NCBI GenBank assembly: GCA_003223555.1
Contig: QHVM01000026.1
Location: 1-53,322, forward strand
DNA length: 53,322 bases
DNA from: Acidobacteriota bacterium
GTDB taxonomy: Bacteria; Acidobacteriota; Vicinamibacteria; Fen-336
Direction of reading: 5' to 3'
Below the pieces are notes generated by a model that saw nothing but the letters and a program-made list of their open reading frames with translations, did no database searches and was not told the DNA's origin. Shown here in pieces: positions 4,227 through 53,322 of the stretch; within the stretch, counting starts at the first letter, position 1; each line of letters opens with the position of its first letter. The position numbers and the translations under genes are program-made.

Positions 4227-5174
4227 TCACTCTGCTCTCAGCGCTGCCACCGGGTCGAGCCGGGCGGCCCGGCGCGCGAGAACCCAGCAGGCTCCGAGAG
4301 CAGCCGCCGTGACCACGACGGCGGCTCCCGCGTAGAGGACGCCATCCCCCGAGGTGGCGCCGTAGAGGAGGTGACGGACCAGGCGGCTGGCGCCCCCGGC
4401 CAGCGTGAGGCCGCCGGTCACGCCGGCCAGCACCACGATCATTTCCTCCCTGATGATCAGGCCGATCGCTTTCAACTCGTCTCCCGCGGCGAGCGCGGTC
4501 GTCAGCGGCATCGTTTCCGTCACCGGGACCTGGGGGTCGATCCGGTTCACGGCCCGCACGAGCATGGGCAGCGCGGCGGCGGGATCACCCACGACCGCGC
4601 CCAGGGCGGCCGGGGTGGCGCCCCATCCCTCGCGCCAGAGCCGATGGCTCAGGACGGCGACGCTGTCGCGGCCCGGCACGCGGTCCTCGTCCGCGCTGAA
4701 GAAGCGGCCGAGCACCGGTTTGACTCCCAGCAGGGAGAAGAAGCCCGCCGAGACGATGGCGGCGCTCCGCTTCTTCGTCGTGCCGCCGTAGGTCAGGAAG
4801 AAGAGGCCGCCGGAGCCGTGGGCAGCCAGGTCCCGGAGCGTGCGGGTGTGATCCCGGACGTGCGCATAATCTGCATACGACACCCTTTGCGACGACGGCG
4901 CATTCCGGCCGACGGCCGCGACGACGACGAGCTCTTCCGGCCGGCTCGCGGCGATCGGGCGCAGCACGAACGCATTCGCGAGCGAGAGCACCGTCGAGAC
5001 CGCGCCCATGGTCAGGGCCAGCGTGAGCAGCGCGGTGAGCGTGAACCCGGGGCTGCGCCGCAGCGCGCGAAGGCCGTATCGCAGGTCTTGGATCGTGGTT
5101 TCGACGAAGGGCAGGAGCGCTCTCCGGTGAGGCTTCAATCGTAGGCGGTCTCCCACTGGAAAACAATGGAACAT
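4227..5174 (-). pseudogene. ADOP-type ABC permease (MacB/FtsX-like) with two large in-frame internal deletions
   Basis: The N-terminus matches an ADOP permease: QDLRYGLRALRRSPGFTLTA, the first membrane helix, then the MacB periplasmic core to HRLWREGWGATPAALG. The frame then jumps directly to a segment that in full-length relatives lies several hundred residues later (VGDPAAALPMLVRAVNRIDP). It jumps again from MPLTTAL to GDELKAIGLIIREEM, skipping the helix and the usual REIGIRMALGA motif. It ends with the normal last helices and ARRAARLDPVAALRAE. At 315 residues it is well under half the usual ~800. The full-length copy at 34941-37382 shows what is missing. The expected ATG before ETTIQDLRY is absent (GTC there), so the 5' end is also altered. 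It is probably a pseudogene, although the open frame leaves a miniature protein possible. Confidence 0.8.
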
Positions 5175-5246
5175 GGGCTCGGCTCCCGGCCTGGCCGGGC
5201 GACCGCGGCAGAGCTAACATCGGCCCTCGGGGGTAACGCACCGGGG

Positions 5247-6566
5247 ATGACGATTTCGGGCCCGGCCTCGCCCCGCCTCGGCCTCGCCGCCAACTGGCGC
5301 CAGTTCTCGGTGCTGGTGGTCGTCAACGCGTTCGTCGGCGCGATGGTCGGCCTCGAGCGGAGCATCCTGCCCGCCCTGGCCGAGCGCGAGTTCCACCTGG
5401 CCGCTCGGGCCGCCATCTTGTCCTTCATCGCCGTCTTCGGCGTCGTGAAGGGCCTCACCAACTACTTCGCGGGGCGGCTCTCGGACCGGTGGGGACGGAA
5501 GCCGATACTCGTCATCGGCTGGGTGATCGCCGCGCCGGTGCCGTTCCTTCTCATGTGGGCGCCGTCCTGGAGCTGGGTCCTCTTCGCGAACGTCCTGCTG
5601 GGGGCGAGCCAGGGCCTGACGTGGTCGACCACGGTCATCATGAAGATCGACCTGGCCGGCCCCGAGCGCCGCGGGCTCGCCATGGGTCTGAACGAGTTCG
5701 CGGGCTACGTCGCCGTCTCCCTGGCTGCGCTCGCCACCGGTTACGTGGCCGCGTCCCACGGCCTGCGGCCGTGGCCTTTCGCGCTCGGCGTCGGTTTCGC
5801 TGCGGCCGGGCTCCTGCTCTCGGTCTTCCTCGTCCGCGAGACCCACGGTCATGCGCGCCACGAGGCGCGTGACGCGCCCCCCAGCCAGGCCGCCGGCCTG
5901 TCGCCGGCTCAGGTCTTCGCGCGGACTTCGCTTCTCGACCGGGACCTGTCCGCCATCAGCCAGGCCGGCCTCGTGAACAACCTGAACGACGGCATGGCCT
6001 GGGGGCTCTTCCCGCTGGTGTTCGCCGCCGCCGGCCTGAGCCTGCGCCAGATCGGCACCGTCGCCGCGGTCTATCCGGCCATCTGGGGCCTGGGCCAGCT
6101 CGTCACGGGCGGCCTCTCCGACCGCATCGGGCGCAAGTGGCTCATCGTGTCCGGCCTATGGGTGCAGGCGGCGGGGATCGCCGTGACCGCGCGGTCGGCA
6201 GGCTATCCGGCGTTCATCGCCGGCAGCGCGCTTCTCGGCGCGGGCACGGCCATGGTCTACCCGACCCTTCTCGCCTCCATCGGCGACGTGGCCCATCCGT
6301 CGTGGCGAGCCTCGGCCACGGGCGTCTATCGTCTCTGGCGCGACCTGGGCTACGCGGTCGGCGCGATCGTGTCCGGCGTGACCGCGGACCTGCTGGGCTC
6401 GAGACCGGCCGTCGGTATGGTGGCCGCGTTGACCTTCGCCTCGGGCGTGGTCGTCGCCCTGCGGCTGCGGGAAACGCGGCGGCCAGCGGCCGAGCGCACC
6501 CTCCGCTCGGCCACGGGTGCCGATCAGCCGAGGGTCCCGACACCCAGCACGAGCGGACGGCGGTAA
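5247..6566 (+). CDS. MFS transporter
   Basis: This 439-residue, 12-helix major facilitator superfamily protein has both halves of the family marked by the motif-A loop: GRLSDRWGRKP at ~76-86 and GGLSDRIGRKW at ~288-298. These cytoplasmic loops gate the transporter. The sequence resembles drug/organic-solute exporters of the YfkF/MFS_1 type, but the substrate cannot be read. The ATG at 5247 is preferred because the residues before it have no helix character; its ribosome site is weak (GGGG). It is divergent from the degraded permease and converges with the methyltransferase gene at 6524, overlapping it tail to tail by 43 bases. The last ~20 residues of the protein therefore lie in that overlap. 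Confidence 0.88.
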   Translation: MTISGPASPRLGLAANWRQFSVLVVVNAFVGAMVGLERSILPALAEREFHLAARAAILSFIAVFGVVKGLTNYFAGRLSDRWGRKPILVIGWVIAAPVPFLLMWAPSWSWVLFANVLLGASQGLTWSTTVIMKIDLAGPERRGLAMGLNEFAGYVAVSLAALATGYVAASHGLRPWPFALGVGFAAAGLLLSVFLVRETHGHARHEARDAPPSQAAGLSPAQVFARTSLLDRDLSAISQAGLVNNLNDGMAWGLFPLVFAAAGLSLRQIGTVAAVYPAIWGLGQLVTGGLSDRIGRKWLIVSGLWVQAAGIAVTARSAGYPAFIAGSALLGAGTAMVYPTLLASIGDVAHPSWRASATGVYRLWRDLGYAVGAIVSGVTADLLGSRPAVGMVAALTFASGVVVALRLRETRRPAAERTLRSATGADQPRVPTPSTSGRR

Positions 6567-8422: not shown

Positions 8423-9400
8423 GTGACCCTCATTCGGATTCTTCCAGTCGCAATCGCCGCCGCCGTCACCGCCGCCGCCCCGACCATCTCGATCAAGGAG
8501 TGGGACGTCCCGACGCCGCACTCGCGGCCCCACGACCCGGCCGTCGCTCCCGACGGCTCGCTCTGGTACACGGGGCAGATGGCGAACAAGCTGGGGCGGC
8601 TCGACCCGCGGACCGGCCAGTTCAAGGAATTCCCCCTCAACACGCCCGGCTCCGGACCGCACGGCCTGGCCGCCGACCGCGACGGGAACATCTGGTTCAC
8701 CGCGATCTCGAAGGCCTACATCGGCGAGCTGGATCCCCGCACCGGAACGGTCAAGGAGTTCCCCATGCCGGACCCGCGGGCCGACCCGCACACGCCGGCC
8801 ATCGACCGCGACGGCATCCTCTGGTTCACGACCCAGCAGGCGAATTTCGTGGGCCGCCTCGACCCGCGGACGGGTGAGATCCGGCTGAAGGAGGTGCCGA
8901 CGCCGGCCGCGGTGCCCTACGGGATCGTCATCGGGAGCGACGGCGTCCCCTACTTCTGCGAGTTCGGCTCCAACAAGCTGGCCAGCATCGACCCCCGCAC
9001 GCTGGCCATCACGGAGTACCCGCTGGTGAACGCGGGCGCGCGCCCGCGGCGGCTCGCCCTGGCTCCGGACGGGACGATCTACTTCAGCGACTACGCCCGC
9101 GGGTACCTCGGGCACTTCGATCCCCGGACGAGGAAAGCCGAAGAGTGGGCGTCTCCGGGGGGAGCGCAGTCGAAGCCCTACGGCATCACCGTCACCCCGG
9201 ACGGCATCGTCTGGTACAGCGAGTCGGGCGTCAGCCCGAACACGCTCGTGCGGTTCGATCCCCGCTCGAAAGCCTTCTCGTCGACGGTCATCCCGTCCGG
9301 GGGCGGCGTGGTGCGCAACATGGCGGCGACGCCGGACGGAAGGCTCTACCTGGCCTGCAGCGGAGTGAACAAGGTCGCGGTCGCGGAGGTCGGCCGCTGA
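8423..9400 (+). CDS. Vgb-family (virginiamycin B lyase-like) beta-propeller protein
   Basis: This 325-residue secreted protein has an N-terminal signal-like stretch (LPVAIAAAVTAAAPT) and then about six or seven repeats of the form DG.LWFT....N.(I/V)GRLDPRTG..KEF. This is the seven-bladed propeller pattern of streptogramin B lyase Vgb and its many homologues. Most environmental members have no proven lyase activity, so 'Vgb-like' describes fold only. The GTG start at 8423 is chosen because GGAGG lies at 8412-8416. The stop overlaps the probable CTG start of the FGE gene, so the two are translationally coupled. Coupling to a sulfatase-maturing enzyme suggests a periplasmic binding or structural role in the same process. 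Confidence 0.85.
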   Translation: MTLIRILPVAIAAAVTAAAPTISIKEWDVPTPHSRPHDPAVAPDGSLWYTGQMANKLGRLDPRTGQFKEFPLNTPGSGPHGLAADRDGNIWFTAISKAYIGELDPRTGTVKEFPMPDPRADPHTPAIDRDGILWFTTQQANFVGRLDPRTGEIRLKEVPTPAAVPYGIVIGSDGVPYFCEFGSNKLASIDPRTLAITEYPLVNAGARPRRLALAPDGTIYFSDYARGYLGHFDPRTRKAEEWASPGGAQSKPYGITVTPDGIVWYSESGVSPNTLVRFDPRSKAFSSTVIPSGGGVVRNMAATPDGRLYLACSGVNKVAVAEVGR

Positions 9401-10326
9401 GACCGGCGCCCCTCCTGCTGCTGCTCGCCCTCGCGGCGTGCCAGCGGCAATCTCGCACCGCCTACGACAAGGTCTCTCGTGCCCGACCGAGAGCCCCCGC
9501 CGCCGCGAAGGACCGCCGGACCGGCGATACGAGGCCGGAGGGAATGGTCTGGATCAACGGTGGAAGCTTCCGGATGGGCGCGACGGACGGCATGCCGTCC
9601 GAGGCGCCCGTCCACGAGGTCAGCGTCAGGCCCTTCTGGATGGACGCGCACGAGGTCACCGTCGGCGACTACGCGGAGTTCGTGGCGGCGAGCGGCTACC
9701 GGACCGAGGCCGAGCGCTTCGGCTGGTCCGGCGTCTTCGACCTTCGGACGCGCGAATGGGAGAAGGCGGACGGCGCCGACTGGCGTCACCCCGACGGCCC
9801 GGGCTCGTCGGCCCCGCCGAGCGAGCCGGTCACCCAGGTCTCGTGGAACGACGCCGTGGCCTACGCCGGGTGGGCGGGCAAGCGCCTGCCGACCGAGGCC
9901 GAATGGGAGTATGCCTCGCGCGGGGGCCTGACCGGCAAGCGGTACCCCTGGGGCGACGAGCTGCGACCCGGACGCAAGCCGGTCGCCAACTGGTGGCAAG
10001 GCCATTTCCCCGACCGCAACACGGGCGAGGACGGCTACCTCGGCCGCGCTCCGGTCGGCAGCTTTCCGCCCAACGGATACGGGCTCTACGACATGGTCGG
10101 CAACGTCTGGGAGTGGTGCGAGGACTGGTTCGACGAGAGCTACTACCGCACGAGTCCCGCCGACGATCCCCGCGGCCCCGCGACGGGGACCGAGCGCGTG
10201 CTTCGCGGCGGGTCGTGGATGTGCAGCGAGAACTACTGCATGAACTACCGAAATGCCGCGCGCAGCCACGCCACGCCCGACAGCGGGCTCAACAACCTCG
10301 GCTTCCGTTGCGTCAAAGATCGATGA
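9397..10326 (+). CDS. Formylglycine-generating enzyme (FGE/SUMF1 type), lipoprotein, probable CTG start
   Basis: This 309-residue protein has a lipoprotein leader (MRPAPLLLLLALAAC, lipobox LAAC with Cys15) and one FGE-sulfatase domain from about residue 47 (EGMVWINGGSFRMG). The C-terminus GGSWMCSENYCMNYRNAARS with TPDSGLNNLGFRC matches the copper-binding active site of true FGEs. Cys276 and Cys281 correspond to human FGE Cys336 and Cys341. It should therefore oxidise the Cys of a CxPxR motif to formylglycine, and a CAPSR sulfatase is encoded at 17550. No ATG, GTG or TTG gives a sensible N-terminus. CTG 9397 sits seven bases after GGAGG (9385-9389), overlaps the upstream TGA and yields a perfect lipoprotein leader. 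Confidence 0.88.
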   Translation: MRPAPLLLLLALAACQRQSRTAYDKVSRARPRAPAAAKDRRTGDTRPEGMVWINGGSFRMGATDGMPSEAPVHEVSVRPFWMDAHEVTVGDYAEFVAASGYRTEAERFGWSGVFDLRTREWEKADGADWRHPDGPGSSAPPSEPVTQVSWNDAVAYAGWAGKRLPTEAEWEYASRGGLTGKRYPWGDELRPGRKPVANWWQGHFPDRNTGEDGYLGRAPVGSFPPNGYGLYDMVGNVWEWCEDWFDESYYRTSPADDPRGPATGTERVLRGGSWMCSENYCMNYRNAARSHATPDSGLNNLGFRCVKDR

Positions 10327-10408
10327 CCGGGCTGGCGAGTCCCAGGGACGAGCGGTGCGACGCGGTCAAGCTCGCGTCGCCCGTGCTAGCATCGGCCGAT
10401 CGAAGTCC

Positions 10409-13393
10409 ATGTCTATTCCGAGCGCCGGTCTGGTCCGCCGCGTCTTCTGGGTTTCACTGCTCTGCCTCGGCCCGCGCACGGGGCAGGCGCTCGAGGCCGG
10501 CCGGCCGATCGGACGTTATCTCCACGACGTCTGGCAATCCGACTCCCCGCTTCCATTTGGAGACGTCCAGACGATCGTGCAGGAACGGCGCGGATACATC
10601 TGGCTCGGCAGCTCGCGCGGCCTGATCCGCTTCGACGGCGCCCGCTTCACCGTCTTCGACTCGGCCAGCGTCCCCGAGCTCGAGGAGCGGAACGTCCGGG
10701 CGCTCCTCGAGGGCGCGGACGGGTCGCTGTGGATCGGCACGCACGGCGGCGGCCTCGTCCGCTTCAAGGAGGGACGATGGCGTGCCTGGTCGGTCCGCGA
10801 TGGGCTCGCCGATGGCCACGTGCTCGCTCTGGCGGAGACGCGCGACGGCAGCCTCTGGATCGGCACGCGCGCCGGGCTCAGCCGGTTCAAGGACGGGGCC
10901 TTCACGACCTATGGGATCCGCGACGGGCTGTCCGACCCCGTGATCCGGGCGCTGCGAGAGGACCGCCAGGGACGCCTCTGGATCGGCAGCTACGGCGGCG
11001 GCCTGAGCTGCTTCGACGGGGGGCGATTCCAGACCTACACGCTCCGCGACTGGGGCGGCCCGCCGTACACGACGACCCACGGTGGATCGGGGGGGGCGGT
11101 CCTCTCGATCGGCGAGGACCGCGATGGAGCGATCTGGTTCGGGACCGAAAGCGGCGGCGTCAGCCGCTTCAAGGACGGCCGCTTCGCCTTCTACGATCGC
11201 GGGCAGGGGCTCCCCGGCCGCACGGTGAGGGCGATACGGCAGGATCGGGACGGGAACCTCTGGATCGGGACGGATGGAGGCCTCGCCCGCTTCGAAGGGG
11301 ACCGGTTCGCCGTGTACGGGCCGGGGGACGGGCTCTCCGCCGAGCTGGTCAAGTCCCTCTACGAGGACCGCGAGGGCAGCCTGTGGGTGGGCACGCGCGA
11401 CGGCCTCGACCGGTTCAAGGACAGCAAGTTCGCCGTCTACGCGATGGCGGAGGGGCTGCCCACCGACTTCGTCGAATCGGTATCGGGAGACGGGCGGGAC
11501 GTCTGGATCGGGACGCGGCGCGGCCTGACCCGCTGGCGCGACGGCCGCATGGCGACGTTCACGATGCGCGACGGCCTGCCCAGCGACGTCGTGCACGCGC
11601 TGGGCCACGGCGCGGATCGCAAGCTCTGGGTCGGCACCGCGGGCGGCCTGGCGTCTTTCGACGGACGTCGCTTCCGCCGCTATGGGCCGCGCGACGGCCT
11701 GGCCGGCGAATCGGTCTTCGCGATCCTGGCCGACCCGGACGGAACGCTCTGGATCGGCACCAGCGCGGGGCTCAGCCGGCTCCGCAACGGCTCGTTCACC
11801 GTCTACACCGCGCGCGACGGCATGTCGTCACCCGACGTGCGCGCGCTCCACCGTGACCGCGGCGGGACGCTGTGGATCGGGTCCTACGCCGGCGGGTTGA
11901 TGCGTTTCGACGGAAAGCACTTTCGCGCGTTGACGGCGCGCGACGGCCTCTCGAACGAGAACGTATTCAGCATCCTCGAAGACGCCGAGGGGACGATCTG
12001 GGCCGGCACCGACCAGGGTCTCAACCGGATCCGAGACGGAAGGATCACCGCCTATCAGGTCCGCGACGGCCTGCCCGACGACACCATCTATCAGGTCCTC
12101 CAGGATGCCTCCCTCGACCGCTGGATCAGCTGCCCGAAGGGAGTCCTCCGCGTACGTCACCGGGACCTCGAGGATTTCGCACGCGGCCGCTCCGCCGCGC
12201 TGCCGGTGACGTCCTTCGGCAAGGCCGACGGCATGAGGAGCAGCGAATGCACGGGCCGCACGCAGCCCGCGGGCTGGAAGGGGGGCGACGGACGGCTCTG
12301 GTTCCCCACGACGAAGGGAGTCGTCGTGATCGATCCGGCCCGGATTGCCGTGAACCGCCAGCCGCCGTCGGTGGTCGTGGAGCAGGTCGGGATAGACGGC
12401 GCGGCGGCGGACGCGGTCGACGGCCTCACGCTCCCGCCGGGCAGCGAGCGGCTGGAGTTCCAGTACACGGGGCTGAGCCTGCTGGCGCCGGAAAAGGTGC
12501 GCTTCCGGTATCGGCTCGAAGGGTTCGATTCGGACTGGGTCGATGCGGGCACCCGTCGCACCGCCTACTACACGAACCTCTTTCCCGGCCGCTACACCTT
12601 CCGGGTCATCGCCTGCAACAACGACGGGATCTGGAGCGAGCAGGGTGCGTCGCTCGGGCTTCGCCTGCGCCCGCACTTCTATCAGACGCGCTCCTTCTAC
12701 GCGCTCGGCGCCGGCCTCGTCGCCCTGGCGGGCTGGGGCGTGCATCGGCTGCGCATCCGGCAGGTCCACGCGCGGTTCGCCGCCGTCCTCGCCGAGCGGA
12801 CGCGCATGGCCCGCGAGCTGCACGACACGCTCGAGCAGGGCCTCATGGCCGTGCGCCTCCAGCTCGAAGCGACCGGGATGAGGGTGACCGAGGGTCGACG
12901 CGTGATCGAGCGCCATCTGCGGCTGGCGCGGGACATCGTGGACGGCGTGCTCGCGGAGGCGCGAAGGTCGGTCTGGGGGCTGCGGTCCCCGGCCCTGGAA
13001 GACGCCGACCTGCCCACCGCGCTTTCGAGCGCCGCGCGCCGGCTCACGGAAGGGACGCCCGTGGAGGCGCGCGTGCAGCTCCGCGGCACCCCTCGCCGCT
13101 TGCCCGGCATCGTGGAGCTGAACCTGCTCCGGATCGGGCAGGAGGCCATCACCAACGCCTTGAAGCATGCTCACGCCCGCCAGATCCAACTGGAGCTGGC
13201 ATTCGACCGGGGCCGGGTGCGGCTGTGCGCCCGTGACGATGGGCGTGGATTCGACCCCCAGGCCGCCCCGCCGCAGGGGCACTTCGGCCTGAAGGGAATG
13301 CGAGAGCGGGTCCAGGAGCTGGGCGGAGAGATGTCGCTGCACAGCACGCCGAGCGGGGGCACCCGGATCGTGGTCGAGGTGCCGGTGGGCTGA
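10409..13393 (+). CDS. Sensor histidine kinase with two periplasmic Reg_prop beta-propellers
   Basis: A 994-residue membrane sensor. After a signal peptide (to about residue 28) come about 14 repeats of the LWIGT..GL.RF.DG type, enough for two seven-bladed propellers, and then a Y_Y_Y domain near 695-757 (RYRLEGFDSDWVDAG). One membrane helix follows near 763-783. The cytosolic part has a HisKA_3 dimerisation domain with phospho-acceptor His805 in MARELHDTLEQG and a HATPase domain (N box NALKHAHA, G box DDGRGFDP, GLKGMRERV). This is NarX/DesK-type kinase wiring on a PUL-style sensor. It is followed seven bases later by its NarL-type regulator. Start ATG 10409 has no strong ribosome site but gives the signal peptide directly. 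Confidence 0.93.
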   Translation: MSIPSAGLVRRVFWVSLLCLGPRTGQALEAGRPIGRYLHDVWQSDSPLPFGDVQTIVQERRGYIWLGSSRGLIRFDGARFTVFDSASVPELEERNVRALLEGADGSLWIGTHGGGLVRFKEGRWRAWSVRDGLADGHVLALAETRDGSLWIGTRAGLSRFKDGAFTTYGIRDGLSDPVIRALREDRQGRLWIGSYGGGLSCFDGGRFQTYTLRDWGGPPYTTTHGGSGGAVLSIGEDRDGAIWFGTESGGVSRFKDGRFAFYDRGQGLPGRTVRAIRQDRDGNLWIGTDGGLARFEGDRFAVYGPGDGLSAELVKSLYEDREGSLWVGTRDGLDRFKDSKFAVYAMAEGLPTDFVESVSGDGRDVWIGTRRGLTRWRDGRMATFTMRDGLPSDVVHALGHGADRKLWVGTAGGLASFDGRRFRRYGPRDGLAGESVFAILADPDGTLWIGTSAGLSRLRNGSFTVYTARDGMSSPDVRALHRDRGGTLWIGSYAGGLMRFDGKHFRALTARDGLSNENVFSILEDAEGTIWAGTDQGLNRIRDGRITAYQVRDGLPDDTIYQVLQDASLDRWISCPKGVLRVRHRDLEDFARGRSAALPVTSFGKADGMRSSECTGRTQPAGWKGGDGRLWFPTTKGVVVIDPARIAVNRQPPSVVVEQVGIDGAAADAVDGLTLPPGSERLEFQYTGLSLLAPEKVRFRYRLEGFDSDWVDAGTRRTAYYTNLFPGRYTFRVIACNNDGIWSEQGASLGLRLRPHFYQTRSFYALGAGLVALAGWGVHRLRIRQVHARFAAVLAERTRMARELHDTLEQGLMAVRLQLEATGMRVTEGRRVIERHLRLARDIVDGVLAEARRSVWGLRSPALEDADLPTALSSAARRLTEGTPVEARVQLRGTPRRLPGIVELNLLRIGQEAITNALKHAHARQIQLELAFDRGRVRLCARDDGRGFDPQAAPPQGHFGLKGMRERVQELGGEMSLHSTPSGGTRIVVEVPVG

Positions 13394-13400
13394 TTCGACG

Positions 13401-14081
13401 ATGGATACGCGAACCGTCAGGATCATGATCGTGGACGACCACTTCGTCCTTCGCATGGGGCTGAGGGGCGTCCTGGCCGCCGAGACCGGCTTCACGGTCG
13501 TGGCGGAGGCCTCCACCGGTCCCGAGGCCATCGCGCGTTATCGAGAGCACCGCCCGGACGTGACGCTCATGGACCTGCGCCTGCCGGGCATGAGCGGCCT
13601 CGAGGTCATGGCCGCGATCCGCGCGGAGTTCCCCGGGGCCCGGTTCATTGTCCTCACCACGTCCGAAGGGGACGAGGACATCTATCGGGCGTTCCAGGCG
13701 GGGGCGCGCAGCTACCTCCTCAAGAGCGTCGGCGGCCGCGAGCTGATCGACGCCATTCGCGCCGTACACGGCGGAGGGCGCCGCGTCCCGCCCCTCATCG
13801 CCAGCCGGCTGGCGGAGAGGGTTGAAGGCAGCGAGCTGACGGCCCGGGAGATGGACGTGCTCCGGCTGGTGGTGAAGGGCCTCGGCAACAAGGCGATCGC
13901 CACCGCCCTCGACATCGGCGAGGGGACGGCGAAGAACCACGTCAAGCAGATCCTCGGCAAGCTCGGGGTGAGCGCGCGCACGCAGGCCGCCACCACCGCC
14001 ATCGAGCGCGGGCTCGTGCACCTCGACTCGGCCTCCGACGACCCCGGCGCCGACCAGCAGCCGGGGCGAAGGCGTCAGTAA
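13401..14081 (+). CDS. NarL/FixJ-family response regulator
   Basis: This 226-residue regulator has an N-terminal receiver domain with acidic pair Asp12/Asp13 (IVDDH), phospho-acceptor Asp58 (LMDLRLPG), switch Thr86/87 and Lys108 (YLLKSV). A C-terminal LuxR-type helix-turn-helix follows: SELTAREMDVLRLVVKGLGN, then IATALDIGEGTAKNHVKQIL. The cognate kinase gene is immediately upstream. The last seven bases overlap tail-to-tail with the TonB receptor gene on the other strand. It probably controls the neighbouring receptor, sulfatase or Vgb/FGE genes, but no operator was identified. Confidence 0.94.
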   Translation: MDTRTVRIMIVDDHFVLRMGLRGVLAAETGFTVVAEASTGPEAIARYREHRPDVTLMDLRLPGMSGLEVMAAIRAEFPGARFIVLTTSEGDEDIYRAFQAGARSYLLKSVGGRELIDAIRAVHGGGRRVPPLIASRLAERVEGSELTAREMDVLRLVVKGLGNKAIATALDIGEGTAKNHVKQILGKLGVSARTQAATTAIERGLVHLDSASDDPGADQQPGRRRQ

Positions 14082-17000
14082 GACAGCTTCAGCCCGAGCT
14101 GCACGCGGCGGCTGTCCCTCCGGCTGAGGAGGCGGCCGAAATCCGGGTTGGTGAAGGCGAGGATGAGCGAGCCGTCGCCGTCGTCGAGGTTGTGATGGTT
14201 GAAGAGGTCGTAGGCCTCGAAGCGCACCTGGACCGAGCGGCGGCCACCGATGCGGAAGTCCTTGAGCAGGGCGAGGTCGACGAGCCAGTCGCCGGGACCG
14301 AACACGGCGTTGCGCGGCACGGTCCCGAACGTGTTGTGATCGATGCCGCGTCCGGGAAGGGCGAAGGCGGATTTGTCGAACCATCGCACGCCGCCGTCCG
14401 GCTCGACCGTCCTGGGATAGCCGATCGGTGAGACGAGGTCGGGCCGATCGCCGCTCACACCGTCGAAATTCCAGTCCTGGTTGAGGACGACGTTGAGGGG
14501 ACGTCCGGTGCGCACGCGGGCCGATCCCGAGAGGCGCCATCCGCCGGCCAGCCGGCCGAGCAGGTTCGTGCGGTCGCGCAGGAGCGGCAGCTCATAGGTG
14601 AAGAACGCGCGCAGCGTGTGCCGCCGCTGGTTCTCCGCGCGCTCGCCGTCGAGGTCGAGGGGGTTGGCGGTCTGCGCGCCCTGGCTGGTCGGGTCGCTGC
14701 TCGCAGTGTCGAAGCCCTTGGCCAGGACGTAGGTGAGCCGCGCGGTCAGGCGGCGGCGGCGGACGGTGGCCGCGGCCTGGAGGGAGTCGTACCAGAGCTT
14801 GGCCGTGGAGTCGACGACGAGCACGTCGCGGTAGTTCTTGATGGGCCGCCGCGCGTCGCGGCTGGCCGCAGTGTCCTGCGCGCCGTCCTGCCAGCGCGCG
14901 AAGTTGATGGGAAGGATCTGCGTGAAGTGGCGCCCGCGGTTGCCCACGTATCCCGCGCTCAGGCTGACCCCCCGGGCCAGCTCGCGCTCCACCGCGACGT
15001 TCCATTGCACGCTGCGCGGAGTCTCGAATCCCTTCGAGAAACCGAGCGCGTTGAAGGGCGGCGTCCACCGGAAGTTGGCGACGTCACGGCCGCTCAGCGG
15101 CGTGGGCGGGCTCGAGTAGCGCGGGGTGGTGCTGGTCAGCCAGGGATCGGCCAGGCGCGCCTCGCCGGCCAGGACCTGGGGCCGCCAGGGATTGTTCTCG
15201 GCCAGCCAGATGTAGATCTGGCTCGGGTTGTACGAGTAGTAGATGCCGGCGCCGGCGCGGATGGCCGTGCGGCCGTCGCCGAAGACGTCATAGGCGAGGC
15301 CGAGGCGGGGAGCGAAGTTGTCCTTGTCCGGCTTGAAGAACCGGTCGCCGATCCCCGTGTCCCCGGCGAAGGCCAGCCCCACCGGCGCCGCCGGGAACCG
15401 ATCGGACTGATGTCCGCTCACGAAGGCCACGAGCTTGTCGTCCTTCGCCTCGTGGGGCGGCGAGTAGAACTCGTAGCGCAGCCCGGGCGTGAGGGTCAGG
15501 CGCGGGTGGACTCGCCACTGGTCCTGCACGTAGAAGAAGGTGTTCCAGTTGTGGACGTCGTAGTCCAGGATCCCCGACATCGAGAAGCCGACCGTCCGCC
15601 CCATCAGGAAGTCCGCGAAGGCGTAGCCGAACTGCTCCGCGGTGGGTGCGCTCGTCCGGCCCGAGGAGTAGCGCCCGTCGAACATGAAGACCGTCTTGTC
15701 GGTGTCGTCGTACTGGCGCACGTCGTCGCGCTGGACTTCCGCGCCGAGCTTGACGTTGTGCGCGCGCGTCGTCCAGGTCAGGCTGGAGCCGGCCTGGTAG
15801 CTTCCCTGGTCGAACCGGCTGAGGTTGCCGTAGCGCGCCACCGGACCGCTGGCGATCTGGACCTGGGGCAGGTATTTCCGCGCGCCGTCCTGGTTGATGG
15901 GCCAGTTCCGGGCGCCGAAATCGGCGAGGCTCTTCTCGGGCGTGTCCGTCCGCCGGTTGGCATCGAGGCGCGACATGTTGACCCGCGTCTCCAGCAGGGC
16001 GTGGCTGCTCACGATCCAGTTGTGGCGGAGGGACAACGCGTTCTGCTGGGCGTCGTTGAGGTTCGAGCCGTAGGCGGGGATGGTGTTGGTGGCGAAGGGC
16101 GGCCCACCCTGGGCGTCCGGCCGGGTGAAGCGGCCCCAGGTGGTGAAGTAGCTGGCCTGGAGCGAGTGGCCGCGCGCGAGCTGGTGATCGATCTTGAGCA
16201 GCGCCTCGTTGTTCCGCGTGGGCCGTTCGAACGACCAGAGGTAGCGGTCGTTGTAGCTCGCCACGTCCGGCAGGAGGCTCAGCAGGCTGACCGCGACGGG
16301 ATCGAGGAGCCGGGACGGGACCTGGTTGCCCGCCAGTGGCTGCCGGGTGTCGGGGTCCAGGAGCTGCACCGGCACCGACGAGAAATCGCCGCGCTTCATG
16401 GCCTCGGTGGGAAAGCGGACCGTGGCCTGGCTCGCGGCGTCGTTGTCGCGGAAGGCCATGAACGAGGCGAAGAAGAAGGTCCGGTCGCGCCGGATCGGCC
16501 CTCCCACCGTGGCCGCGAACGTCTTTCTCTCGTCGTCGAGGGGCGGCTGGCCGGCCCGGTTGCGTATCCACGTATTGGCGTTGAGCGCCTTGTCCCGGAA
16601 GAAGTAGGCCACCGTGCCCTTGACCTCGTTGGTCCCGGACTTCGTGACTACGTTGAAGCTCCCGCCAGGCTGGCGTCCGAACTCGGCGGAGGTGTTGCTG
16701 GTGGCGACCTGCAGCTCCTCGACGGCGTCGGGGTTCGGGAAGTTGAGGCCCTGGTTCCGGAAGGCGCCGGAGTTGTCCGCGCCGTCCAGGTAGAAGCCGT
16801 TGCGGCCGCTCCGGTTGCCGTTCACCTGGGCGTTCGTGCCCTCGATGTTCAGCACCTGGCCGCTTCCGCCGGCGGTGGGACCGAAGTCCACGTCGACGCC
16901 GGGAGCCAGCGCGGCCAGCTCGAGGACGGAGCGATTCAGCGCCGGAAGCTCCTCGATGAGCCTGCGCTCCACGTTCGTGCCGATCTGGGCGGAGAGGGTG

Positions 17001-17395
17001 TCGACGAGGGCGGCGGGCGCGGTGACCTCGACCGTCTCGACCACGGCGCCGATGTCCAGCCGCACGTCGATCACGGCGCTGCGGCCGACCTCGGCCCGGA
17101 TGCCCTTGACGGAGCTGGGCCGGAAGCCGGACAGCGCCGCGCGCAGCGTGTAGCGGCCGGGGGCGACCGAATTGAAGACGTAGCCGCCGTCGGCGGCGCT
17201 GAGGCCGACGAGACGCACGTTGGTCGCTTCGTTGGTCAGGTCCAGCTCGACGCCGGCCAGCGCACCGCCCTGGCTGTCCCGCACCGTCCCCTGAACGGTG
17301 CCGGTCGTCTGCTGGGCAGACGCCATGCGGGTGGAGAGAGCGAGAACGGCGAGGGCCGCGAGACCCGGGTGGGCGCGCATCGGGGTCGATCTCAT
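14075..17395 (-). CDS. Oar-like TonB-dependent outer-membrane receptor
   Basis: This 1106-residue protein has a signal peptide (LAALAVLALSTRMASAQ), then a carboxypeptidase-regulatory-like beta-sandwich (GTVQGTVRDSQGGALAGVE, about 30-110). A short TonB-box-like VETVEVTAP near 125, a plug domain (LIEELPALNRSVLELAALAP, DGADNSGAFRN) and a long 22-strand type barrel ending VQLGLKLSY follow. Length and order are those of Oar-type receptors common in Acidobacteria and Bacteroidetes, which import bulky ligands such as glycans or peptides using TonB energy. ATG 17395 has GAGGAGG upstream. It diverges from the sulfatase gene over a 154-base region and converges with the response regulator. The neighbours suggest a sulfated ligand, but that is inference. 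Confidence 0.93.
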   Translation of the reverse strand: MRSTPMRAHPGLAALAVLALSTRMASAQQTTGTVQGTVRDSQGGALAGVELDLTNEATNVRLVGLSAADGGYVFNSVAPGRYTLRAALSGFRPSSVKGIRAEVGRSAVIDVRLDIGAVVETVEVTAPAALVDTLSAQIGTNVERRLIEELPALNRSVLELAALAPGVDVDFGPTAGGSGQVLNIEGTNAQVNGNRSGRNGFYLDGADNSGAFRNQGLNFPNPDAVEELQVATSNTSAEFGRQPGGSFNVVTKSGTNEVKGTVAYFFRDKALNANTWIRNRAGQPPLDDERKTFAATVGGPIRRDRTFFFASFMAFRDNDAASQATVRFPTEAMKRGDFSSVPVQLLDPDTRQPLAGNQVPSRLLDPVAVSLLSLLPDVASYNDRYLWSFERPTRNNEALLKIDHQLARGHSLQASYFTTWGRFTRPDAQGGPPFATNTIPAYGSNLNDAQQNALSLRHNWIVSSHALLETRVNMSRLDANRRTDTPEKSLADFGARNWPINQDGARKYLPQVQIASGPVARYGNLSRFDQGSYQAGSSLTWTTRAHNVKLGAEVQRDDVRQYDDTDKTVFMFDGRYSSGRTSAPTAEQFGYAFADFLMGRTVGFSMSGILDYDVHNWNTFFYVQDQWRVHPRLTLTPGLRYEFYSPPHEAKDDKLVAFVSGHQSDRFPAAPVGLAFAGDTGIGDRFFKPDKDNFAPRLGLAYDVFGDGRTAIRAGAGIYYSYNPSQIYIWLAENNPWRPQVLAGEARLADPWLTSTTPRYSSPPTPLSGRDVANFRWTPPFNALGFSKGFETPRSVQWNVAVERELARGVSLSAGYVGNRGRHFTQILPINFARWQDGAQDTAASRDARRPIKNYRDVLVVDSTAKLWYDSLQAAATVRRRRLTARLTYVLAKGFDTASSDPTSQGAQTANPLDLDGERAENQRRHTLRAFFTYELPLLRDRTNLLGRLAGGWRLSGSARVRTGRPLNVVLNQDWNFDGVSGDRPDLVSPIGYPRTVEPDGGVRWFDKSAFALPGRGIDHNTFGTVPRNAVFGPGDWLVDLALLKDFRIGGRRSVQVRFEAYDLFNHHNLDDGDGSLILAFTNPDFGRLLSRRDSRRVQLGLKLSY

Positions 17396-17469
17396 ACGAT
17401 CCTCCTCGTCGGCCCGAGCCTGCGCGCAGGAGGCGGCGCGCGCAAATCGCGGAAGGGACGGCGCGGACC

Positions 17470-17525
17470 ATCCCGAAAGGGATAGAGGCCGCCCCTCCCT
17501 CCGGGGGGCGACAGCCCGGGGCGGC
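17470..17525 (+). other. Structured leader upstream of the sulfatase gene
   Basis: Two perfect inverted repeats lie in tandem before the sulfatase ATG (17550). The first has arms ATCCC/GGGAT (17470-17474, 17479-17483) closing a GAAA tetraloop. The second has arms GCCGCCCC/GGGGCGGC (17488-17495, 17518-17525) with a GC-rich 22-base loop. A separate 12-base palindrome CCTGCGCGCAGG is at 17419-17430. They may form a 5' leader structure or be chance in GC-rich DNA. Confidence 0.3.
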
Positions 17526-17549
17526 AACGTCTATCCTCGGGGCAGATCG

Positions 17550-18935
17550 ATGAGCCAGTCGCGATCGACGCCAGGATGGTGGGCCGCGGCCGGGATCGGG
17601 GTCGTGCTGCTTGCGGCCAGGGGCGGCGACCCGGTCGCCGCCCACAAGCGTGGCGCCCTGCGTCCCAACATCGTCCTCATCCTGGCCGACGACCTCGGCT
17701 ATGGCGACCTCGGGTGTTACGGCCAGAAGCTCACGCGCACGCCCTCCCTCGACCGTCTGGCCGCGGAAGGGATTCGCTTCACGGATTTCTACGCGGGCAG
17801 CACCGTCTGTGCCCCGTCCCGGGCCAGCCTCATGACGGGCCAGCACCAGGGCCACGCCTACATCAGGGGAAACAGCCGGCCGGGTGGAGACTGGAGGGTC
17901 CAGGTCCCCCTGCGGCCGCGCGACCTCACCGTGGCGGAGGCCTTGAAGGCCGCCTCGTACCGCACGGCCCTGATCGGCAAGTGGGGTCTCGGTGACGCGG
18001 GGACGCCTGGAGTCCCCAACCACAAGGGCTTCGATTCCTTCTTCGGCTACCTCGACCAGGTCCATGCGCACGACTACTACCCGAGCTTCCTGTGGCGGGA
18101 CGAAGAGAAGGTCGCGCTGCCCCCGGGCACGTACTCCTCGGACCTGTTCACGCGGGAGGCGCTCGCTTTCCTCCGCCAGCCCCAGGACCAGCCCTTCTTC
18201 CTCTACCTCGCCTACACGACGCCGCACTCGAACAACGCGATCCCGAACGGCGGCGGCATGCAGGTCCCCTCGGACGAGCCCTACACGCGCGAGCCGTGGC
18301 CACAGCCGGTGAAGAACCGGGCGGCAATGATCACACGCATGGATCGCGACATCGGAGAGATCGTGGCCGCCATCGACGCGCAGGCGGGGCGTGACACCGT
18401 GATCTTCTTCAGCAGCGACAACGGTCCCGCCCGGGAGGGCGGCTCCGATCCCGCCTATTTCGACAGCGGGGGGCCGCTCAGAGGGATCAAGCGCGACCTC
18501 TACGAGGGAGGGATACGGGTCCCCTTCATCGCCCGCTGGAAGGGACGAGTCCGCAAAGGGCAGGTCAGCAGGGAATGCCTCGCCCTGTGGGACGTCTTCC
18601 CCACCGCAGCCGAGCTGGCCGGCCTCGCGCCGCCCACGGGCCTCGACGGGATCTCCTTCGTGCCGACGCTGCTCGGCCTTGCCCAGAGGCCACACGACTA
18701 CCTCTACTGGGAATTCCACGAGCGGGGGTTCGCGCGCGCCGTGCGCCAGGGCCGCTTCAAGCTCCTGGCCAACGGCTCCGGCTCCCCGCTCGAGCTCTAC
18801 GATCTGGACACGGATGTCGGCGAGCGCGACGACCTCGCGGCGCTATTTCCCGACCGCGTCCGGCGGCTCGAAGCCATCATGGACAAGGCGCGCGTCGAAT
18901 CCGCGATCTGGACCGTCGCGAACCCCGGGCCGTAG
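17550..18935 (+). CDS. Formylglycine-dependent sulfatase (arylsulfatase family)
   Basis: This 461-residue sulfatase has the signature STVCAPSRASLMTG. Cys87 of the CxPSR motif is the residue an FGE converts to formylglycine. Metal ligands are visible in ILADDLGYGDLGCYG (Asp47/Asp48) and SSDNGP. The family pattern of GKWGLGD, FFLYLAYTTPHSNN and a C-terminal LYDLDTDVGERDDLA completes the fold. The N-terminus WWAAAGIGVVLLAARGG is hydrophobic and followed by small residues, so export to the periplasm is likely. The start at ATG 17550 gives this leader. A true FGE is encoded 7.2 kb upstream on the same strand and should mature this enzyme. The sulfate ester it cleaves is unknown; this branch contains both aryl- and glycan sulfatases. 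Confidence 0.93.
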   Translation: MSQSRSTPGWWAAAGIGVVLLAARGGDPVAAHKRGALRPNIVLILADDLGYGDLGCYGQKLTRTPSLDRLAAEGIRFTDFYAGSTVCAPSRASLMTGQHQGHAYIRGNSRPGGDWRVQVPLRPRDLTVAEALKAASYRTALIGKWGLGDAGTPGVPNHKGFDSFFGYLDQVHAHDYYPSFLWRDEEKVALPPGTYSSDLFTREALAFLRQPQDQPFFLYLAYTTPHSNNAIPNGGGMQVPSDEPYTREPWPQPVKNRAAMITRMDRDIGEIVAAIDAQAGRDTVIFFSSDNGPAREGGSDPAYFDSGGPLRGIKRDLYEGGIRVPFIARWKGRVRKGQVSRECLALWDVFPTAAELAGLAPPTGLDGISFVPTLLGLAQRPHDYLYWEFHERGFARAVRQGRFKLLANGSGSPLELYDLDTDVGERDDLAALFPDRVRRLEAIMDKARVESAIWTVANPGP

Positions 18936-50720: not shown

Positions 50721-53322
50721 CTAATGACGGACCGGCCCCAGATACTTGTCGAGCCAGTCGAGGCTCTCGCGGACCTCTTCCGTCCGGGGGAAGTTCCCGT
50801 GCCCGGCCTCGAAGACGACGTGCTTCTTGTCCCGGTCCGCCGTGCCCAGAAGACGAAAGAGCGGTAGCTGGGAAGAAGCCAACGGGAAATAGTCGTCGTA
50901 GCGCCCGTTCAGCATCAATGTGGGAGTGGACATCCGCGGCGCGAAGTTGAGCCGGTCGACCTCCGGCAGGTCACGCCGCAGCTGGAACCCGCCGCGCGTC
51001 AGGATGGCCGCCTTGAAGCGCCCATCGACGGCCAGGAACACCGGAGCGAGCTGCGCCCCGTGGCTGTCGCCGAGGTAGGCCAGCTTCGTGCTGTCGATGT
51101 CCTTTCGCGTCTCGAGGTAGTCGAGCGATCGGCTCACGTCCTTCGCCATCATAATCACGTTGTCGCGAAAGAAGGCCGGCGGCTTCCCGCCGGGCCTCAA
51201 GCCGTCCTGCCGTTCGAAGGTGCTCTTGTAGATCGGGAAGACCAGGGCCCGGCCGCTCTTGAGAATGAATCCCAGCTCGTCCTCGACGAGCGAGAAGGAG
51301 AACTTGTCCAGGAACATCGCATCTGCGGGTGGGAAGAACATGACGGCCTGGAACGGTGGGGGAGCGTTCCTCGGCAGGAAGATGTGGGCGTTCACGCGCT
51401 CGTTGCCGTAGGCGGCGTCGAAGCTCACCTTCTCGTGCGTCCAGCCCGGCGTCGTCTCCGTCTCATGGACTCCCGGGTGCAGCTCGCCCTTGTCGTAGGC
51501 GTACAGTCCGCGGTACGCCTCGAAGATCTCCGCCGCCACCGGCTTCTCGGCCGAGTAGTCGCGGAAGGTGACGTCGACCCTGGCCGCCGCCGCGGCGCTG
51601 GGCGGCGAATCGAGCTTCACGCACCGAACGCCGAAGTTCGGCTCGCGTTTCCAGGGCGACTGCGCGTCCGACTGGAAGAACACGTACGGCGGGTCGCCGA
51701 AGCCGCCGCCCATGATGAACCGCTTGCCGTCGCGGCCTTCGTTCCAGCACCATTCCTTGACGTTGCCGGCCATGTCCGTGGTTCCAAAGCCGCTGAGCGT
51801 GCCGGGGCCTCCCACCGGTTTGGTCTCGACCGCGTGGAAGTTGCTCGCGGGAGCCCAGAGTGAGCCGACCCCCGATTGCGAGGCATTGGTCCAGTGGTAC
51901 GCCGTGGGGAGGGTCTTGCCCGCGAACTCGGCGTAGGCCGCGGCCTCGTACCAGCTGATTCCCGCGACCGGATGCTTGTCCCGGCCCCTGGGATAGCGGC
52001 CCGCCTCCCACGTGGCGGGGCCCGGGTCTCCGGTCCGGTCGCGGAAGAACGCCACGGCGTCTTCCCAAGAGAGAGCGCGTCCGTCTTGCACGAACGGCTG
52101 CGTCCAGAAGTCACGCCGGCGATAGCCGCCGGCGTCGACGAACTCCTGGTACTCCTCGTTCGTGACTTCGTGGCGGTCGATGAGGTAGTCGCCGGTGTCG
52201 ACGCGGGGAGCCTCTCCGAGCGGATGCAGCAGGCGCGTCTCACCGCCCATGACGGCGATCATGCCGGCGGGGACGCTCCACTCTGGACGAAGGTTCACCG
52301 TCCACTCCATGGCGCCCCAGCCTCCCACCGGGGCGATGGCCAGAGAGGGAGCGAATCCGGGCCTGGCCACGCGCCATACGTAGTCGTCCTTGGGCAGGCG
52401 AACGTCCTTGAGGGGGGTCTGGCCGAGGTGCTGCCAGGCGTTCTCATCTCCCCGGTAGGAGCGGATCGAGACGTCGGCGCCGGGCGGCGCACTTTCGATC
52501 GAGGCCGCCCCCGTGGCCCGCTGCCACAGCCCTTCGAGGGCCGGATCACTTGGTAGAACCTGACGGGCCTGGCCGGTGAGCGCGGCCGCCTTGGCAAACT
52601 CCCCCGCTTCCACGAGCCGCGTGATCTCGGGCGTCGCCGTTTCCCGCGCCCATCGCTCGCGGGAGGAGCGGTGCCAGAGCCAAACGGCGGCGCCACTGGC
52701 CACGACCAGGACCGCCCCCGCGGCAAGCGCGGTGGCACGTCGGGGTGGCGCCCGGCGCCGCAGCCGGTCGATGCCGGCGATCAGTCGCCTCCGTCGGAGA
52801 CGGAGGCCGTAGGGAATCCAACGGCCATGCAAGGCCGACGCGACATCCCGCGCCGCCGGGAAGCGTTCCGCCGGGTCTTGGGCCAGGCAACGCACGATGA
52901 CCCGCTCCCAATTCCGGTCGAGCTGCGGGACATGCTTGCGTGGTGACGGAGGAGGCCCCTGGAGCCGCTTCAGGGCCGTGGCCAACGGCGAGCCGGCGGT
53001 GAACGGCCGTGCGCCGGTGACCATCTCATACATCACGACACCCAGCGCGTACACATCCGTCGCGGCGCTGACCGCCCCGCCCTCCACCTGCTCCGGGGCC
53101 ATGTAGTCCGGCGTACCGAATTCCCGTCCGGTCGCGGTGACGGGTCCCCTATCGGCGCCCGCGGTCCGCGCCAGCCCGAAATCGGTCACCACCACCCGTC
53201 GACCCTCTGCCGACGGTACGAGCATGACGTTCGCGCTCTTGAAATCGCGGTGCACGATCTCGTGTGAATGGGCAGCGTCGAGGGCGGCCGTCATCTGGGT
53301 CACCAGAGGAAGGGCTTCCTGC
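50721..53322 (-). CDS. Membrane Ser/Thr kinase-PEGA-SUMF1-hydrolase fusion, N-terminus cut by the window
   Basis: The 3' 867 codons of a large signalling fusion. First comes the C-terminal lobe of a Hanks kinase (EIVHRDFKSANVML, VVTDFGLARTAG, PDYMAPEQVEGG), then a basic linker and one membrane helix (ALAAGAVLVVASGAAVWLW). A PEGA-like segment (APPGADVSIRSYRGDENAW), a SUMF1/FGE-sulfatase fold (YLIDRHEVTNEEYQEFVDAG, GNVKEWCWNEG, NFGVRCVK) and an alpha/beta-hydrolase (nucleophile in GDSHGAQ, Asp in NGRYDDYFP, His in EAGHGNFPR) follow. The FGE copper cysteines are absent, so this SUMF1 fold is not a sulfatase activator but probably a binding or scaffold unit. The frame is open to the window end, so the ATP-binding lobe is upstream. 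Confidence 0.9.
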   Translation of the reverse strand, partial: QEALPLVTQMTAALDAAHSHEIVHRDFKSANVMLVPSAEGRRVVVTDFGLARTAGADRGPVTATGREFGTPDYMAPEQVEGGAVSAATDVYALGVVMYEMVTGARPFTAGSPLATALKRLQGPPPSPRKHVPQLDRNWERVIVRCLAQDPAERFPAARDVASALHGRWIPYGLRLRRRRLIAGIDRLRRRAPPRRATALAAGAVLVVASGAAVWLWHRSSRERWARETATPEITRLVEAGEFAKAAALTGQARQVLPSDPALEGLWQRATGAASIESAPPGADVSIRSYRGDENAWQHLGQTPLKDVRLPKDDYVWRVARPGFAPSLAIAPVGGWGAMEWTVNLRPEWSVPAGMIAVMGGETRLLHPLGEAPRVDTGDYLIDRHEVTNEEYQEFVDAGGYRRRDFWTQPFVQDGRALSWEDAVAFFRDRTGDPGPATWEAGRYPRGRDKHPVAGISWYEAAAYAEFAGKTLPTAYHWTNASQSGVGSLWAPASNFHAVETKPVGGPGTLSGFGTTDMAGNVKEWCWNEGRDGKRFIMGGGFGDPPYVFFQSDAQSPWKREPNFGVRCVKLDSPPSAAAAARVDVTFRDYSAEKPVAAEIFEAYRGLYAYDKGELHPGVHETETTPGWTHEKVSFDAAYGNERVNAHIFLPRNAPPPFQAVMFFPPADAMFLDKFSFSLVEDELGFILKSGRALVFPIYKSTFERQDGLRPGGKPPAFFRDNVIMMAKDVSRSLDYLETRKDIDSTKLAYLGDSHGAQLAPVFLAVDGRFKAAILTRGGFQLRRDLPEVDRLNFAPRMSTPTLMLNGRYDDYFPLASSQLPLFRLLGTADRDKKHVVFEAGHGNFPRTEEVRESLDWLDKYLGPVRH

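Follow-up and report, generated by a model that had tools for sequence, protein, structure and literature searches.

The window analysed here is the whole of a 53,322-nucleotide stretch from an Acidobacteriota bacterium, contig C31 of a 5.39-Mb genome in 151 contigs (98% complete). The original prediction had placed a Vgb-like propeller protein, an FGE lipoprotein, a sensor kinase with its regulator, an Oar-like TonB receptor and a CAPSR sulfatase at positions 8423-18935, and profile searches bear out the coordinates, domains and motifs of all five parts and of the regulator. The genes for the Vgb-like protein, FGE, kinase and regulator are co-directional, the first two overlapping, followed by gaps of 82 bp and then 7 bp, so that a single transcript is likely. 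The receptor gene is convergent with the regulator gene, tail to tail, and divergent from the sulfatase gene across some 150 bp. As had also been claimed, neither a glycoside hydrolase nor SusD is encoded between the parts. Within 8423-18935 no inner-membrane transporter is encoded; beyond two methyltransferase genes, at 5166-6563, there is an MFS gene. Searches for sigma-70 promoters and terminators gave nothing above chance, and an Rfam search gave no match.

The first gene (8423-9400, forward strand) has a GTG start preceded by GGAGG. Its product belongs to the virginiamycin B lyase propeller family (PF24684, E = 5.8e-57; PDB matches 2qc5 and 2z2n) and, judging from its N-terminal sequence, would be secreted. 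No close relative is present in the family genomes, a sample of 14 (13 besides the source genome), several of them fragmentary. The Mg-binding and catalytic residues of virginiamycin B lyase are His228, Glu268 and His270. In the blade pair aligned to this active site, both His residues are kept and Gly stands opposite Glu268, the blade register being ambiguous.

The FGE gene (9397-10326, forward strand) encodes a protein with an LAAC lipobox that matches PF03781 over profile positions 3-255 of 255 (E = 6.3e-85) and whose best PDB matches are the Streptomyces coelicolor and human FGEs. The catalytic CxxxxC pair common to it and the S. coelicolor enzyme (PDB 2q17, 6muj) is kept, RGGSWMCSENYC aligning with RGGSYLCHDSYC of 2q17, and the protein is therefore predicted to convert the CxPxR Cys of exported sulfatases to formylglycine. 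It differs from the S. coelicolor FGE in being an exported lipoprotein, in adjoining a vgb-like gene and in its probable start codon. The frame offers no ATG, GTG or TTG at the natural start; the start is most likely CTG 9397, which overlaps the vgb stop and lies seven bases after GGAGG. A relative's FGE gene has GTG at the position of this CTG.

Three other PF03781 proteins are encoded in the genome, all lacking the Cys pair, and no anSME match reached the cut-off. At the end of the window (50721-53321, running off its edge) lies a protein kinase fusion whose FGE-like domain has no Cys pair and which also has a weak prolyl-oligopeptidase match. Eight Cys-type sulfatases, with CAPSR, CTPSR, CSPSR or CCPSR motifs, are scattered over eight contigs. 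Since this is the only Cys-pair FGE found and no anSME reached the cut-off, the enzyme is probably a general maturase, acting in trans on all eight. An FGE dedicated to one substrate is correspondingly unlikely, since no second true FGE was found to share at least eight sulfatases with it. In the remaining PF00884 proteins of the genome, mostly TPR fusions, the nucleophile position for the most part has T-x-PSH or lacks a motif that can be recognised, and maturation by FGE should not be required. At several places in the genome (L137, L138, L139 and L145), such TPR fusions without CxPxR, again mostly with T-x-PSH, directly adjoin Oar-like receptors.

Proximity of FGE to a sulfatase is a recurrent arrangement. 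A sulfatase adjoins FGE in all four of its closest family relatives (69, 60, 56 and 56% identity), a different one each time; these sulfatases are only 27-36% identical to that of the window, and no kinase, receptor or vgb gene accompanies them. Among 43 true-FGE loci in other bacteria, 28 have a sulfatase within reach, two a kinase match, one the receptor type and none a vgb gene. FGE often adjoins other sulfatases in 396 genomes of the phylum as well. In the source genome, the chance of an FGE-sulfatase spacing within 7.2 kb is about 0.02.

Downstream of fge, the kinase gene (10409-13393, forward strand, ATG start) encodes a classical non-hybrid protein with Reg_prop repeats, Y_Y_Y, HisKA_3 and HATPase_c domains. 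It is not an HTCS, receiver and AraC domains being absent and the REC-GerE regulator, of NarL/FixJ type, being a separate protein encoded 7 bp further on (13401-14081, forward strand). The receptor gene (14075-17395, reverse strand, ATG with GGAGG) has CarboxypepD_reg, Plug and OMP_b-brl_4 domains (E = 4e-180), and there are at least 66 matches to this receptor type in the source genome (54 of 111 candidates scored). Together with a high G+C content, this abundance would suit a genome of acidobacterial type. The missing SusD had been regarded as unusual. It is found in none of the 14 family genomes, so that its absence at 8423-18935 is a trait of the lineage rather than a feature of the locus. 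SusD is likewise absent in Xanthomonas, and SusC/SusD have been suggested to be specific to Bacteroidetes (Blanvillain et al., PMC1790865); given that suggestion, its lack outside Bacteroidetes is to be expected. The SusC/SusD pair taken as the criterion for a Bacteroidetes PUL is accordingly found neither in the window nor in the family.

A sister arrangement of kinase, regulator and Oar-type receptor exists in three family genomes: G001 (C323), G002 (C221) and the source genome itself, G000 (C6 and C90). These orthologous cassettes are 77-81% identical to one another in the kinase and 72-90% in the receptor, and in all three the receptor is tail to tail with the kinase, as is the receptor with the kinase-regulator pair in the window. 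In the source genome the cassette is split between the ends of C6 and C90 (L154, L269): C6 carries the regulator, the kinase and the C-terminus of the receptor, C90 the receptor's N-terminal part (88.5% identical). The two ends seem to hold the two sides of a single receptor gene, of which the last 42 residues are on C6; the C90 part apparently changes frame near residue 790. In kinase and regulator architecture the window matches the cassettes, with identities of 43-46% for the kinase and 52-57% for the regulator, and by these comparisons its kinase and regulator are a diverged paralogue of the cassette pair, with a receptor of their own. As that receptor is just 29-31% identical to the cassette receptors, the module in the window may have been assembled independently. 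The cassettes further differ from the window in that the regulator is divergent, not co-directional, and in the absence of sulfatase and FGE; their neighbours are a zinc alcohol dehydrogenase (G002 and G000) and other sugar-type enzymes (mandelate racemase-like, GSDH).

The cassettes, unlike the window, also share a perfect palindrome, ACCTGCC-N4-GGCAGGT, which lies upstream of the receptor gene in each of the three genomes (L157:2375-2392, L159:14371-14388 and G000:C90:50498-50515). Elsewhere in the 14 family genomes it occurs once only, inside a receptor ORF of G002. Since a reversed control pattern also matches by chance, twice in G000 and never in the other genomes, it is position and not count that serves as evidence, and the palindrome is a candidate site of the cassette's NarL-type regulator. 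It does not occur in the window at up to two mismatches. A search for a regulator site shared by three transcription units had been proposed; pairwise 14-mer comparison of the regions upstream of 8423 and 10409 and of 17396-17549 gave nothing above shuffles. The gap between fge and the kinase gene holds a slightly unusual palindrome, CGACGCG-N8-CGCGTCG, matched by seven of 100 shuffles. In the intergenic region from which receptor and sulfatase diverge (17396-17549), a possible shared promoter, no palindrome was significant.

Conservation of the whole gene neighbourhood had been put forward as a check on the locus, and its lack in relatives as a refutation; for the locus as a unit, it is lacking. 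The full set occurs together in none of the 13 other family genomes, where the best matches to each protein lie on different contigs, nor in any of the 43 true-FGE loci. These searches used tblastn with queries from the window, so that very distant kinases or receptors would escape notice, and some gene calls in the relatives rest on a codon-position G+C rule. Neither was the set seen across the 396 phylum genomes, of which G246 has the closest homologues of sulfatase (59%) and FGE (67%), on different contigs. What is conserved are the two halves, FGE with sulfatase and kinase and regulator with Oar receptor, and to that extent the proposed locus finds partial support. As far as sequence comparison goes, the locus is thus two separately conserved, ordinary pieces side by side, and the suggestion of a new kind of sulfate-ester locus is not proven.

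The five parts had been proposed to act as one unit; in a strict form, a single dedicated locus, provided with an FGE of its own, would serve to sense, take up and desulfate one sulfated substrate. This would suit the tight co-orientation from vgb to the regulator gene, suggestive of one transcript, the divergence of receptor and sulfatase from one 150-bp region and an FGE-sulfatase distance that chance makes improbable. Nevertheless, the set is conserved in no relative, the FGE is the sole maturase found for eight scattered sulfatases, the relatives' cassettes lack sulfatases and no shared site was found, and we regard such a locus as rather unlikely. At the other extreme, the interval might hold chance neighbours without common function: a vgb-fge pair with a housekeeping role, an unrelated two-component system next to one of the many Oar receptors, and one of the eight sulfatases. 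The abundance of the receptor type in the genome and the unconserved gene order would fit this, as would the nearest sulfatase homologues (L187, L188 and L151), which are without receptor, kinase or FGE. The recurrence in relatives of the FGE-sulfatase linkage, with its low chance probability here, and of the tail-to-tail linkage of kinase and receptor argue against it, and mere adjacency appears distinctly unlikely.

The sulfatase gene (17550-18935, forward strand) encodes a secreted Cys-type enzyme with a CAPSR motif (PF00884, E = 3e-59). Its top PDB relatives are 7ana and 7an1 (E = 1e-92), with E-values some 24 orders of magnitude better than any other; next comes a kappa-carrageenan sulfatase of S1_16 (E = 5e-67), with steryl- and aryl-sulfatases far lower. 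The two structures are those of BT1622 and BT1636, both of them S1_20 enzymes, whose reaction is the removal of the 3-O-sulfate of Gal/GalNAc (PMC10154620). In BT1636, a His contacts the axial O4 of Gal and Glu and Arg contact O2, the latter two being lacking in BT1622 (PMC10154612). The window sulfatase keeps all three, as His 175, Glu 297 and Arg 316 (numbering of the translation from 17547), sharing the alignment columns HAHDYYP, EGG and KRDLYEGG with BT1636; BT1622 carries Asn and Cys in the Glu and Arg columns. The triad is also kept in many homologues from the phylum. To judge by these relatives and residues, the enzyme most likely acts outside the cytoplasm, where it would free a terminal galactose-type sugar of its 3-O-sulfate. 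From the lack of glycoside hydrolases and SusD in the interval it had been suggested that the substrate may be a sulfate ester other than a glycan. Such an ester, be it an alkyl, aryl or steroid sulfate, is very improbable in view of the S1_20 relatives, the kept galactose-recognition residues and the family-wide absence of SusD.

Among the 396 phylum genomes, a homologue of the sulfatase adjoins an Oar receptor in G253 (L204) and lies near one at L207, L252 and L253. The L204 protein (G253:C202), S1_20-like and divergent from its receptor as in the window, carries Ser at the position of the catalytic Cys.

Taken together, we consider it somewhat better than an even prospect that two recurrent modules lie side by side here, with FGE linked to the locus yet serving the whole genome, and form a small CUT-like unit for a 3-sulfated galactose-type glycan. 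Module A consists of the FGE lipoprotein and the Cys-type sulfatase, the S1_20-like enzyme presumably being the nearest FGE client. Module B comprises the kinase with its putatively periplasmic propeller, the NarL-type regulator and the Oar-like TonB receptor. The kinase would sense a ligand, probably an oligosaccharide, and the regulator would switch the adjacent receptor gene and perhaps, through the divergent 150-bp promoter, the sulfatase gene too. The two modules might then make up a SusD-less unit for sensing, uptake and desulfation, with further breakdown enzymes presumably encoded elsewhere. The genes, the motifs and the recurrence of each module are observed; from them we infer the substrate, the direction of regulation and the cooperation of A and B. 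Against such cooperation stands the absence of the combined modules from all other genomes examined. A bolder version, which we judge unlikely, is a self-contained SusD-less locus that would sense, import and desulfate a 3-O-sulfated galactan, its maturase co-transcribed with the sensor, which would set the overall sulfatase-activating capacity.

The nearest known arrangements are the CUT loci (TonB-dependent-receptor carbohydrate utilization) of Xanthomonas and Caulobacter (PMC1790865), which likewise combine a TonB receptor, a regulator and a carbohydrate-active enzyme without SusD. Compared with these, the interval has no inner-membrane sugar transporter, its enzyme is a sulfatase and its regulator is of the two-component NarL type. 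The sulfatase maturase of Bacteroides thetaiotaomicron is an anSME. The mucin PUL of that species, which includes BT1636 (PMC10154612), also combines a TonB receptor and a propeller-type sensor with a nearby S1_20-like sulfatase; in contrast to it, the window has neither SusD nor glycoside hydrolases, its kinase is not a hybrid HTCS and its maturase is FGE, not anSME.

If the reading of two adjacent modules with a genome-wide maturase is correct, one FGE gene would be the control point for every sulfatase of the genome. As this gene is likely to be co-transcribed with a sensor kinase of glycan type, sulfatase activation could in that way be coupled to substrate sensing. The palindrome of the sister cassettes, for its part, is a definite clue to how Reg_prop/NarL systems regulate outside Bacteroidetes.
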